DNA of 64,000 bases, from contig NZ_JAAORN010000001.1 in assembly GCF_017695975.1 (NCBI RefSeq), positions 868,001 through 932,000 of the forward strand, read 5' to 3'. This document shows positions 1,719 to 5,642 of this stretch, in pieces. A program made the translations under genes and the position numbers. The DNA comes from Prochlorococcus marinus CUG1417 (GTDB lineage: Bacteria; Cyanobacteriota; Cyanobacteriia; PCC-6307; Cyanobiaceae). The notes under the pieces were generated by a model, which saw only the letters and a list, made by a program, of their open reading frames with translations, was not told the origin of the DNA and searched no databases. Position 1 is the stretch's first letter. The number at the start of each line of letters is the position of its first letter.

Positions 1719-2471
1719 TTAAGTAAGTATTGAGTAGTAAATAATTATAAAAAAATAAAAAATAAACATATTCAAAAAGGGGATGATATCCCTTTTTTGA
1801 GGTTTGGGTACGATCCAATCACTTAAATTAGTTTTATATGATATGAAGGACCACGTATAAAAAGAAATTTCTATGGAGACTAAGATAAAAAGATTAATTA
1901 AATTTAAGTCATTTAAACCAAAATATCTATAAATATGAAACTGATCATCAACACTAATATTATTTATTTGAAGATGCCAAAGATAGAGAGAAATCAAAAT
2001 AAAATTTACCAATATTATTTTCTTTAACAGAAACCTAGATTTCTTAAAAATTAATAAAATAGAAATTAAAAATATGAAAAAACTTAACTGTGGAATATCC
2101 TGTTTTGGTATATTAATTCCATCAAGAAATAAATTAAATATAAGATCAAAATTTATATATATATAATCAGCTATAAAGTAAGAAAGAAATATTAAATTTA
2201 TTGCTACTAAGAATAATAATCTTTTTCCTAAAATTATTTTTTCACTATGAATTTTATCCTTATTAAAATTATAGTATGTATAGTTTTTTAAAGAGTTTAA
2301 ACACACTATAGATGGACATATTGCTCCACTCAAATAGTAAAGTATCGAATAAAAGGAAATATCATTAATATTGAATGAATACAAATTAAACCATTGTTTT
2401 TGTACAAATGGAAGAATAAGTAAAAATAAAAATGTAACTAATAACTTCGTTGTATTATTTTTAATTATCAA
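1719..2471 (-). CDS. Multi-helix membrane protein, unknown
   Basis: The 250-residue product is very hydrophobic, with about six or seven likely membrane helices, starting with one at residues 10-25. Loops are short and lysine-rich. I see no transport or enzyme motif and do not recognise the family. It begins 33 bases after the stop of the FtsH-like gene on the same strand, so the two are probably co-transcribed. The partnership suggests, but does not prove, a shared job in the membrane. Base composition is even more AT-rich than its neighbour's. Confidence 0.7.
   Translation of the reverse strand: MIIKNNTTKLLVTFLFLLILPFVQKQWFNLYSFNINDISFYSILYYLSGAICPSIVCLNSLKNYTYYNFNKDKIHSEKIILGKRLLFLVAINLIFLSYFIADYIYINFDLIFNLFLDGINIPKQDIPQLSFFIFLISILLIFKKSRFLLKKIILVNFILISLYLWHLQINNISVDDQFHIYRYFGLNDLNLINLFILVSIEISFYTWSFISYKTNLSDWIVPKPQKRDIIPFLNMFIFYFFIIIYYSILT
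1772..1800 (+). terminator. Probable terminator of the peroxiredoxin gene, inside the opposite gene
   Basis: A stem of TCAAAAAGGG paired with CCCTTTTTTGA around a short AT loop ends in a T run on the plus strand. It lies about 70 bases past the peroxiredoxin stop. The position is inside the last codons of the convergent minus-strand gene, so one stretch serves as coding sequence and probably as terminator. Confidence 0.45.
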
Positions 2472-2504: not shown

Positions 2505-4259
2505 TCAAACTTTCAACAATTTAGAAGTTGTTAATTTAAAAACTTTTTTATCTATAGTTTCTTGAATTAGAAGTATATCAACTAATTTATCTAATAAGAC
2601 TCTATTTTTTTTCAATATTTTTATTGAATTATTTAATGAAATTTTTGAAATATTTATGATTTCATTATCTATTCTAGAACTAGTATTTTCTGCTATGAGA
2701 GGCTTTCTTCTAAATAATCCATCTCCTAAATACATTTCATTATTATCAGATTCCATTGAAATTGGACCAATAATTGAGAATCCATATTTTGTTACCATTT
2801 CCCTTACGATATTTGTCGCATAAGAGATATCATTTAATGAGCATTGTGTAATTTCACTTTCACCAAAAACTATCGTTTCTGCCGCTCTTCCAGCTAAAGC
2901 AATTTCAATTTTTGAAAATAAAAATTTTTTTGAAATCAAGCCACTAGAAATTACATCTTCGTCAGGGCATATTTTTGTATATCCCCCTAAAGATCCAGAT
3001 CTAGGTAAGATCGTAATTTTATCAACTGATTCGATTCCATTTCTCACAGCAGATACAATAGCTCTACCTACCTCGTTATAAGCAATAATTTTTTTCATAT
3101 TTGGAGAAGTTATTAATGAACTTCTCAGGCCGATGGTAATTTTATCAAGAGCATTTTCTATATGAAGATCACTGATCAATTTAGATTCATCTCTTGCACA
3201 GTGAATAGCACTCTCATTCATCAAATTTGCAAGATCTGCTCCCGAAAATCCAACTGTCCTAGAAGCCCAATATCCTAAGTCAACTTCGCCTGAAAGTGGT
3301 TTGGAAAGTGAGTGAACTGAAAGAATTTTTTTTCTTCCATCTAAATCTGGAAGCATTACTTCAATTTTTCTATCAAATCTACCTGGTCTTAATAATGCTG
3401 CATCTAAAATATCTGGTCTATTTGTTGCTGCCAAAACAATAATCCCAGAATTATCAGCAAAACCATCTAATTCAGTTAAAAGCTGATTAAGGGTTTGTTC
3501 TCTTTCATCATTTCCTCCTCCGATCCCAGAACCTCTTTGCCTTCCTATAGAATCAATTTCATCAATGAAAATTATACAGGGAGATTTTTCCTTAGCCTTA
3601 GAAAAAAGATCGCGAACTCGGCTTGCACCAACACCAACAAAAAGTTCAACAAACTCTGATGCCGATATTGAGAGAAAAGGCACTCCTGATTCACCAGCAA
3701 TTGCTTTAGCCAATAAAGTTTTACCTGTTCCTGGTGGGCCAATTAAAAGAACTCCCTTAGGAACTTTTGCTCCAAGACTTTCAAATTTCTTTGGTTCTTT
3801 CAAAAATGTTATTACCTCTTTTAATTCCTCAGCGGCTTCAGGGACACCAGCTACATCATCGAATCGCGTTTCTACATCATCAATAGTTACAAATTTAGCT
3901 TGATTTTTGGTAAAACCAAAGGCTCTGGAAGCCAATTTTGATGTACTCCTCAATATTAAAACTACAGCTAATATAAAAATCAGGAAAAGGCTTATTGAAG
4001 CAAATGAATTTGCAGCTGAGGCTTCTTTTCTACTATTGTTAATAGTTAGATCCACCTTGTTTTCAGTAGCCTTTTCAAGGATTAATTGATCGTTGTAAAG
4101 GATAGGTATTTTAAATTTATCGCCATTTTTATATAGAACATCAATTTCTCTCTGCCTAGGATAGAAAAATATTGATTCTATTTTCCCCGTCTCTATATCT
4201 TTTAGAAGATCCGAATAACTTGATTTAGAATCTGAATATGAGAATTTTGATCTAAACAC
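2505..4259 (-). CDS. FtsH-like AAA protein with a destroyed protease zinc site
   Basis: FtsH is normally a membrane-bound hexameric AAA protease. Here the ATPase half is intact: Walker A GPPGTGKT at 174-181, Walker B IIFIDEID at 229-236, and the second region of homology with RPGRFD near 291-296. The protease half aligns along its whole length, but the zinc motif HEAGH reads NEVGR at 395-399 (bases 3063-3077), so both histidine ligands are gone. The distal Asp ligand remains at about D477 (LNDIS). The N-terminal region resembles the FtsH periplasmic domain, and a single membrane helix lies at about 88-104; the usual first helix is missing. The start is GTG at 4257-4259, with an in-frame stop three codons upstream. 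Such inactive relatives are called FtsHi in plastids. It probably works as an unfoldase, a chaperone or a regulator of true FtsH. Confidence 0.93.
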
Positions 4260-4390: not shown

Positions 4391-4561
4391 ATGGCTGTAC
4401 CAAAGAAGAAAAAATCAAAGAGCAAAAGGAACCAAAGGCACGCTGTTTGGAAAGGGAAAGCAGCAATAGCAGCTCAAAAAGCTATATCTTTAGGCAAATC
4501 AGTTTTAACTGGAAAAGCTCAAGGATTTGTTTATCCTATTGAAGAAGAAGAAGAAGAATAG
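4391..4561 (+). CDS. rpmF: 50S ribosomal protein L32
   Basis: The 56-residue protein starts [11 protein letters not shown], the signature of L32, followed by the RNQRHAVW segment. It is a small basic component of the large ribosomal subunit. Like chloroplast and cyanobacterial L32, it lacks the zinc-binding cysteine pairs. The tail is an unusual run of glutamates encoded by GAA repeats. The gene is transcribed away from the FtsH-like gene and converges with the Ycf20-like gene. Confidence 0.95.
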
Positions 4562-4564
4562 CTT

Positions 4565-4891
4565 TTAAGATCCCAATTTAAATGCTTCAAGTATAACGGC
4601 ATAAATTGCACCAATTCTTAATTTATCAACTACGGTCCATAGATAATAAAATTTTGAACTTGCGGAAGGTTTAATTCTTATAATGATTTCAATAAAAATG
4701 ATAATTATTGGAACCATAATTAACTCATTTTTACCTTCAGATATAAATTTTGTTAGAAAATTGGCAAACAAAAAATAACCTATCAAAACAGAAATTAGAC
4801 CAATAGATTTTTTCCTCCAAGTATCACTTAGAAACCCAAAAAATAAATTATTTAACTGATAGATGATTCTCGAAAAATTAGTTTTTTGCAT
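4565..4891 (-). CDS. Ycf20-like membrane protein (DUF565)
   Basis: The protein of 108 residues has the Ycf20 layout: an N-terminal RIIYQLNNL segment, a WRKKS turn, then three hydrophobic stretches, the middle one containing a conserved Glu (IEIIIRI). Ycf20 relatives in algae and plants are linked to non-photochemical quenching, but their molecular role is not settled. The gene overlaps the end of the upstream HAD gene by 14 bases, which implies co-transcription. Confidence 0.75.
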   Translation of the reverse strand: MQKTNFSRIIYQLNNLFFGFLSDTWRKKSIGLISVLIGYFLFANFLTKFISEGKNELIMVPIIIIFIEIIIRIKPSASSKFYYLWTVVDKLRIGAIYAVILEAFKLGS

Positions 4892-5642
4892 TACTAAAAG
4901 ACACTAAATAATCACTTAGAAAGCTAAAGTCAACATATGATTTTTTTAGTTTAGGACCTTTAATTACATTTGCCACATTATTCTCGTCACCAAGACTGTC
5001 TAGAATACAATCTAATTTAATATTTTTTTCAAGAACAACTGGGATATTTGAAGGAACAAAAATTGTGGGTAAGTTAGCTGCCAAGGAAGATTTTAATCCT
5101 GGGTTGGAGTCTTCGAAAACAATTGAGTTATTTTTGTTTATACCACTTAATTGAATTGCCTTTAAATAAGGAAATGGATTTGGTTTCTTTAATTCAACGT
5201 CTTCACTTGAAATAATGAACTCAAAAGGATTGAAGCCATGAAAAAGGTATTCAACAAGAAGATCAACTTGATTTCTTGAACTTGAAGTAACAATAAATTG
5301 TCTTACTTTTTTTCTATGTAATTCATTTATTAATCTAAAAACACCAGTTTTGAAACTAACACAATTTTTTTTTATAATTTCTAAATAATGAAACTGCTTT
5401 GTTTCATGAATCTTGAGAATTAAATCTTCTGAGAAATCATAATTATTCGATTTAGCGTAATAAGCAATCCTATTTTTACCCCCATTTATCTTCAAAAGTT
5501 TTATGTATTTATTTGTATCCCAATTCCAATTAATACCAAGATCATTGAAAGCATTATTAAAAGCAGGTAAATGTGCCTCTAATTCAGTATTTGCGATGGT
5601 ACCATCTAAATCCCAATAAACCCCCTCAAGATAAGTCACCAA
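4878..5642 (-). CDS. HAD-family phosphatase, CbbY-like
   Basis: This is a 254-residue soluble hydrolase of the haloacid dehalogenase superfamily. Motif I is YWDLDGT near residues 9-15, motif II is the VTSSS segment, motif III is the Lys in KKPNPFPY, and motif IV is the acidic IVFEDSNPG. The cap inserted after motif I is helical, as in CbbY and beta-phosphoglucomutase. The substrate is probably a sugar phosphate, but cannot be told from sequence. It leads a two-gene unit with the Ycf20-like gene. Confidence 0.85.
   Translation of the reverse strand: MVTYLEGVYWDLDGTIANTELEAHLPAFNNAFNDLGINWNWDTNKYIKLLKINGGKNRIAYYAKSNNYDFSEDLILKIHETKQFHYLEIIKKNCVSFKTGVFRLINELHRKKVRQFIVTSSSRNQVDLLVEYLFHGFNPFEFIISSEDVELKKPNPFPYLKAIQLSGINKNNSIVFEDSNPGLKSSLAANLPTIFVPSNIPVVLEKNIKLDCILDSLGDENNVANVIKGPKLKKSYVDFSFLSDYLVSFSNAKN

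Follow-up and report, generated by a model that had tools for sequence, protein, structure and literature searches.

A zinc-motif-less FtsH shared by Prochlorococcus lineages carries Lys or Arg at the site of the second zinc histidine

The window analyzed here is a stretch of 64,000 nucleotides from Prochlorococcus marinus CUG1417, and its ftsH gene (2505..4259, minus strand) encodes a protein of 584 amino acids in which the zinc motif of the family is lost. The same loss was found across the genus and in several related lineages, and the position of the second zinc histidine was occupied by Lys or Arg in 69 of 69 copies with a decayed motif and by His in 81 of 81 copies with an active one. 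We propose, with a probability of about 0.6, that this sequence pattern reflects a non-cutting, ATP-driven subunit that would work in a mixed hexamer with an active type-A FtsH, with Lys/Arg holding the M41 domain. The ATPase work and the type-A partner are what we infer.

Results

The ftsH gene of CUG1417 and its domains

The open reading frame begins with GTG, and the residues at the HExxH position, 395-399, read NEVGR (3063..3077, minus strand). A preliminary description of this DNA had reported this replacement together with intact ATPase motifs and a distal Asp, and a second reading of the sequence confirmed all three. The Walker A motif GPPGTGKT (residues 174-181; 3717..3740, minus strand) and the Walker B motif FIDEID (residues 231-236; 3552..3569, minus strand) are intact, and the arginine-finger segment and the pore loop are in place. 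By alignment, Asp477 (2829..2831, minus strand) stands at the position of the distal zinc ligand, and ortholog comparison put Arg399 (3063..3065, minus strand) at that of the second histidine. Pfam analysis placed an AAA+ ATPase domain, lid included, at about residues 131-378 (3126..3869, minus strand; AAA E-value 1.4e-46), a Peptidase_M41 domain at residues 384-574 (2538..3110, minus strand; 1.2e-43, with 149.7 bits against a cut-off of 29.9), and, as a weak match (1.2e-5), an FtsH_ext domain at residues 14-72 (4044..4220, minus strand). The score with the NCBIfam FtsH model TIGR01241 was 644.9 bits (cut-off, 600). Walker A, Walker B, SRH, pore loop, and C-terminal M41 domain thus place the protein in the FtsH/M41 family, while two features of catalytic FtsH are missing: HExxH, and the second of the two N-terminal membrane helices. 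Hydropathy gave only one helix, at about residues 85-107 (3939..4007, minus strand), which spans residues 81-108 in the model. The predicted structure (mean pLDDT 78, pTM 0.58) retained the M41 fold and its helices, and matched FtsH structures over the ATPase and M41 domains (4ww0_A, Z 36.7, 407 residues aligned, rmsd 4.4).

The CUG1417 genome (1.65 Mb in two contigs) contains four M41 genes; apart from the NEVGR copy, these read HEAGH, HEVGH, and HEVGH. Thrift with zinc as the cause of the loss is not favored, since these three keep the zinc motif.

Isoform and gene neighborhood

The phylogenetic tree, the gene order, and published strain primers identified the protein as the picocyanobacterial FtsH4. 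The FtsH4 primers of PMC6300248 matched exactly the orthologs of ftsH in MED4 (L079) and MIT9313 (L104). In total, 11 of 12 primers found a match: all five MED4 primers tried matched only loci of genome G014 and six of the seven MIT9313 primers matched loci of G131, the MIT9313 FtsH3 forward primer having no match among the loci compared. A quick isoform tree was built with 22 best matches from other cyanobacteria, nine named records, and 14 picocyanobacterial paralogs. In this tree, midpoint-rooted and without a Synechocystis sequence, ftsH and its orthologs were neighbors of these best matches and separate from the remaining three isoforms. The FtsH1 label is taken from PMC6300248, where Prochlorococcus FtsH1, 2, 3, and 4 are equated with Synechocystis FtsH2, 3, 4, and 1, and where the relation of FtsH4 to FtsH1 is described as 'less obvious' than those of the other isoforms. 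By this published assignment the gene encodes a type-B FtsH of the Synechocystis FtsH1 line, with which the tree is consistent. The type-A copy of CUG1417 (L001/L154), with HEAGH, is the picocyanobacterial FtsH2, of the Synechocystis FtsH3 line. The numbering of FtsH proteins differs between papers (cf. L175, L304, L181, and L180), which invites mix-ups.

Upstream of ftsH lies a divergent ORF (4391..4561, plus strand) that, from its sequence, we take to be rpmF, encoding ribosomal protein L32. It is followed by a DUF565 gene (4565..4891, minus strand) and a gene for a HAD-family hydrolase (4878..5642, minus strand), both identified by Pfam and locus comparison. This order of HAD hydrolase, DUF565, divergent rpmF, and ftsH was common to the window and to all eight related loci compared. 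Also adjoining ftsH is an ORF of 250 amino acids (1719-2471, minus strand), hydrophobic and membrane-protein-like, for which Pfam gave no match; MED4 has a counterpart in the same place with 46% identity, and the ORF was not found in the seven other loci compared.

Distribution of the zinc-motif loss

The genus search found the ortholog in at least 52 of 61 genomes, the nine without a match being all at most 86% complete, and the family search added four more genus genomes with the ortholog. The motif was read in 54 of the 56 copies (all but those of G011 and G020) and was NEVGR in 53, as in MED4 and Prochlorococcus sp. AG-442-M23 (L182), and NEGGR in one. Asn395 (AAC or AAT) and Arg399 (AGA, CGT, or CGA) were shared by all 54. 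The suggestion of the preliminary description that an FtsH without zinc histidines is stably kept in a very small genome, and its question of whether NEVGR or a similar change is fixed at this locus, are both answered in the affirmative by these copies. A sequence error or a strain-specific mutation is ruled out, because 54 copies from 54 genomes share N395 and R399 with synonymous codon changes, and nothing was found that counts in its favor. All 54 copies kept the catalytic Glu, and 52 of them the distal Asp, as might be expected if FtsH4 were still a protease, with another set of residues or another metal arrangement restoring cleavage. This is very improbable: the CUG1417 protein has neither zinc histidine, Glu or Asp is lost as well in other decayed lineages, and Lys and Arg are poor zinc ligands.

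Outside the genus, orthologs were read in 95 of 116 genomes among the matches listed in the family search. An active motif was present in 81 of them (46 HEVGH and 35 HEIGH), and the other 14 were decayed, with QIIGK in three, HEIGK and HQIGK in two each, and NEVGK, HEAGR, NEAGK, NEIGR, YEIGR, QQVGR, and RESAR in one each. A fifteenth decayed copy, very diverged and with RNASK, was found in G063, which brought the decayed copies read to 69 (54 from the genus and 15 from outside). The preliminary description had held that HEAGH in close relatives would speak for a strain-specific mutation or an error; it occurs in 0 of the 54 genus copies, and beyond the genus it is HE(V/I)GH that 81 orthologs keep. 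It had missed both the decayed spellings outside the genus and the constant Lys/Arg at the second histidine. MIT9313 keeps the active motif HEIGH, and the genome that we take to be RCC307 has HEVGH at the locus; those presumed to be SS120 (G070), NATL2A, and MIT9211 carry the decayed motifs NEAGK, QIIGK, and NEVGK, respectively.

The G063 copy (L164, from base 343) was the most diverged of all and reads GSPGTGKT and RAGRFDK besides RNASK; it is an open frame of 574 amino acids in a complete genome, and its ATPase may be changing as well.

G063 apart, 20 of the 116 non-genus genomes had no ortholog among the matches listed, in a search where a copy scoring below about 520 bits could be missed, as that of G063 was. 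Nineteen of the 20 (all but G115) were scanned for M41: fragments were present in G119 and G165, and G171 contains a short stretch of M41 with a low score. Only G086 among the 20 is at least 95% complete. A repeat search of G086, G133, G074, G098, and G164, with the MIT9313 copy as query, gave no FtsH4-like match. G086 (99% complete) has three M41 genes only and falls somewhere outside both decayed groups; with no FtsH4-like match either, this lineage may therefore have lost the isoform entirely.

The scan of other genome contigs returned mostly other FtsH types among the 80 loci listed. Among viral contigs, the best 80 of 112 relatives included none more than 52% identical, and all had HEAGH, HEGGH, or HESGH. 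These 80 IMG/VR contigs (L312-L391) thus carry FtsH genes with an intact HExGH, which are either phage-borne or mis-sorted host genes.

Number of losses

The main ortholog tree was built on 63 rows, without L164, which was used only in the quick isoform tree, where its long branch meets that of L150. After removal of the motif columns, the 21 decayed rows formed one clade (bootstrap 99, SH-aLRT 97), adjoining three active orthologs of one genus, g52. The N-domain and ATPase columns alone gave the same clade with a weak support of 49. Constraining our own genus to group with the active g52 rows cost 44 log-units (AU p 0.062), and constraining the other decayed rows with g52 cost 22 (AU p 0.196), both p values being above 0.05. 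When the FtsH2-type paralogs of 32 genomes were placed in a tree, our genus and G098 stood together (95/95) and eleven other decayed genomes were grouped (93/92), the joint base of both groups being weakly placed with respect to the active genomes. A single loss after the MIT9313 line had split off is favored by these sequences, because the decayed copies form one clade; we do not call it shown, because the AU tests reject neither alternative tree at 0.05, and two losses, both to a basic residue, are compatible with them.

Conservation of Lys/Arg at the second histidine position

At this site, the tree of 21 decayed rows required at least five changes between Lys and Arg and no departure from them, and of the 195 columns of the M41 domain it was the only one made of both K and R alone. 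Under LG simulation, which assumed a single decayed clade and a root node chosen by name, about 0.3% of the sites rooted in K/R with five changes remained K/R at every one of the 21 tips (14/4595, 21/6912, and 34/12649 under three rate settings). The other zinc-site positions drift among the decayed copies: the first histidine is N, H, Q, Y, or R; the Glu is E, Q, I, or N and is lost in the QIIGK, QQVGR, HQIGK, and RNASK lineages; and the distal Asp is D, E, N, Q, or H. Three residues before this Asp, the site of Ser474 (2838..2840, minus strand) was Ser in 16 of the 17 decayed rows taken into the comparison and Ala in 81 of 81 active copies.

Since HEIGK and HEAGR retain the first histidine, the sequences suggest that the second histidine changed before the other ligands. 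The basic residue would replace the charge of zinc and so steady the M41 domain, and if there were two losses, both to a basic residue, the charge argument would be the stronger for it. From this one may draw the more sweeping picture of an FtsH1/FtsH3-type protease that is by nature permanently half-active, in which all type-B subunits would be zinc-free motors, the cation of Lys/Arg would sit at the place of zinc, and the M41 ring would be metal-free there. The second histidine would have changed in an ancestor shared by most Prochlorococcus, or on two separate occasions, each time to a basic residue, and the remaining ligands would then have drifted while the charge stayed fixed. We advance this picture tentatively, at clearly less than even odds.

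The first membrane helix and the start codon

The GTG start was found in 54 of 54 genus copies, and hydropathy gave one helix before the ATPase in all of them and in each of 14 decayed copies from outside the genus. The absence of the usual first helix had been taken in the preliminary description as a second sign of inactivation, and this part of it does not stand. Among the 81 active orthologs, 59, including that of MIT9313, have one helix and a closed frame, and 13 have a second hydrophobic stretch; the other nine were unscored for it, because their frames run on past the end of the DNA retrieved. Since 59 of 81 active orthologs likewise are without it, the missing helix is not tied to the zinc loss and, judging from these frames, has a separate history; as part of the inactivation it is ruled out.

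A missed start codon is unlikely with GTG in 54 of 54 copies, yet L017 and L026 have a longer frame, open upstream of the GTG and with a weakly hydrophobic stretch (19-residue mean of 1.23 against a cut of 1.4). The equivalent stretch of the window, just upstream of 4259, is interrupted by a stop. It is possible that the stretch in L017 and L026 is due to chance in AT-rich DNA or is a relic of the lost first helix. By eye, the FtsH1-type proteins of other cyanobacteria (L263-L290) often have a weakly hydrophobic, signal-peptide-like N-terminus with an Ala-X-Ala-like end (PALAQ, PAFAQ, PGLAQ), as in a cleaved signal, and seem to have this in place of the standard first helix.

Constraint and rate of evolution

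Among the 54 genus copies, the dN/dS calculated from 1049 pairs with dS of 0.1-1 was 0.079 for the N-terminal part, 0.040 for the ATPase, and 0.115 for the M41 domain. The selection on the ATPase half that the preliminary description had proposed to look for is present, and it is stronger there than on the protease half. In 11 matched genomes, the ATPase and M41 values were 0.047 and 0.101 for the NEVGR FtsH, 0.015 and 0.036 for the FtsH2-type paralog, and 0.008 and 0.021 for the type-A paralog, figures that are rough for the paralog comparison, with dS near or above 1. The ATPase domain of the NEVGR FtsH thus had a dN/dS about 3-6 times those of the two active paralogs. By these estimates the gene evolves several times faster than its paralogs, yet under clear purifying selection, protease domain included.

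The M41/ATPase ratio of tree lengths was 2.31 in decayed rows, 1.62 in active rows, and 2.19 in paralog rows, a moderate acceleration of M41 in the decayed rows relative to the active ones. Within the genus, the M41/ATPase dN ratio was 2.52, versus 2.53 in an active paralog, and the range of 1.44-3.22 in four active ortholog genera spans this value. A simple story of a relaxed protease is weakened by the match with the active paralog, and on these ratios the protease domain appears only partly relaxed. Throughout the 21 decayed rows, Walker B, RPGRFDR, and a further stretch of 13 residues were unchanged, Walker A varied solely at its second Pro, in two rows, and the pore loop showed V/I swaps only.

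A relic in decay, about to be lost, would account for the faster evolution, for the very diverged G063 copy with its altered RNASK, GSPGTGKT, and RAGRFDK, and for G098, a genome 84% complete that stands beside our genus in the paralog tree and gave no copy. We find it scarcely credible, as all 27 genomes of the decayed genera with a completeness of at least 95% (18 of the genus and nine others) retain the gene as an open frame, frequent frameshifts were not seen, dN/dS is far below 1 in every domain, and the motif residues stayed fixed under synonymous turnover.

The conserved pore loop and ATPase motifs would equally suit a homo-hexamer that serves as an ATP-driven unfoldase, membrane extractor, or translocation motor, with neither proteolysis nor a type-A partner, in the manner of the plastid Ycf2-FtsHi motor. 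Solved chains of that motor also matched the model (8xku_E, Z 27.1, 435 aligned, rmsd 11.5; 8xqw_E, Z 25.6, 516 aligned, rmsd 21.2), and plastid FtsHi proteins act in protein import (PMC11266112). The conservation of M41 does not separate such a motor from a mixed hexamer, and descent counts against it, the gene coming from the FtsH1 type, which in Synechocystis pairs with FtsH3 (PMC9020784). We consider the homo-hexamer unlikely, though the foremost of the rivals.

Discussion

In the reading that we prefer, the mixed hexamer with a type-A partner, the type-B subunit of the FtsH1 line would have lost peptide cleavage in the high-light and several low-light lineages of Prochlorococcus, probably in one ancestor, while the MIT9313 line kept it. 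FtsH4 would still hydrolyze ATP and pull substrates, and would assemble with the type-A FtsH (HEAGH) into a mixed hexamer in which the type-A subunits alone cut. Lys/Arg would supply the positive charge that formerly came from zinc and keep M41 folded without the metal. In Synechocystis, FtsH1 and FtsH2, both of type B, each pair with FtsH3, of type A (PMC9020784), and the FtsH1/3 complex is essential (PMC9020784, PMC11287208). According to the review PMC9020784, protease-dead type-B subunits support PSII repair and ATPase-dead ones do not. A type-B motor without cutting would fit this published rule and would leave the type-A HEAGH copy as the cutter. The preliminary description had also put forward a mixed hexamer with an active FtsH, and what is published on the family makes this plausible.

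Some points count against the mixed hexamer. First, FtsH4 looks like a minor transcript in MED4, because the FtsH transcript pool of this strain is described as balanced among isoforms 1-3 (PMC6300248), which counts against a large role. Second, a figure of an ocean metaproteome study names only FtsH1-3 (PMC11262661). Third, the gene appears from its dN/dS to evolve faster than the active paralogs. That the gene is retained though its transcript seems low (PMC6300248) would also agree with a dominant brake, i.e., a dead subunit that lowers the dose of active FtsH hexamers, with the type-A pool adjusted through the ratio of the two. The same sequence facts serve this explanation, nothing in them separates a brake from a constitutive structural partner, and we judge it improbable.

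Inactive FtsH proteins are already known in plastids, and one SS120 copy is already in print. Mishra et al. (2019; PMC6460958) noted one FtsHi in Prochlorococcus marinus SS120, repeated in PMC8197885, and set it beside the chlorophyll b of this strain. It is almost certainly of the same gene line as the NEVGR FtsH of CUG1417. That report concerned one copy in one strain; here, the loss is seen in many lineages and MIT9313 keeps HEIGH. MIT9313 also has chlorophyll b, and its active motif therefore counts against a link between this pigment and FtsHi. Searches of the open-access literature gave no earlier description of the fixation across lineages, of the invariant Lys/Arg, or of a helix history independent of the zinc loss.

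The likeness to plastid FtsHi put forward in the preliminary description holds as an analogy. Like FtsHi1, 2, 4, and 5 of the Ycf2-FtsHi import motor, the CUG1417 protein has the FtsH fold, has kept AAA+, and has lost the zinc motif. Of the plastid motifs TEVGV, NEAAM, REAAV, and WAAGR (PMC11266112), only that of FtsHi5 is basic at the site of the second histidine. In a tree of cyanobacterial sequences, the CUG1417 protein nests among active picocyanobacterial orthologs, and there is no plastid import for it to serve. Among the structural matches, its identity was 38% and 34% to the plastid motor chains, versus 43-54% to the bacterial FtsH chains listed.

Two further systems were compared by description. 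Synechocystis FtsH1 (Slr1390), of the FtsH1/FtsH3 complex, belongs to the same isoform line according to PMC6300248, and FtsH1/3 degrades Fur (PMC11287208), whereas the Prochlorococcus copy has no zinc site. The engineered protease-dead type-B FtsH of Zhang et al. (2010, as cited in PMC9020784) combines ATPase, no proteolysis, and an active type-A partner; what was engineered there would be a natural, fixed state here, if our reading holds. Tables that assign to this isoform a role parallel to that of Synechocystis FtsH1 (PMC11262661, Table 1) need a caveat for the lineages described here.

The constant Lys/Arg suggests a route by which a metallopeptidase fold may outlive the loss of its metal. 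One of the most abundant of all photosynthetic organisms, Prochlorococcus has few spare genes, so a zinc-less FtsH that persists across its lineages must be of use in some way other than cutting. In plants, where inactive FtsH subunits have so far mostly been studied, FtsHi null mutants are embryo-lethal. The Prochlorococcus protein would offer a bacterial test case for the role of such subunits, and also for whether a mixed FtsH hexamer can do with some of its active sites.
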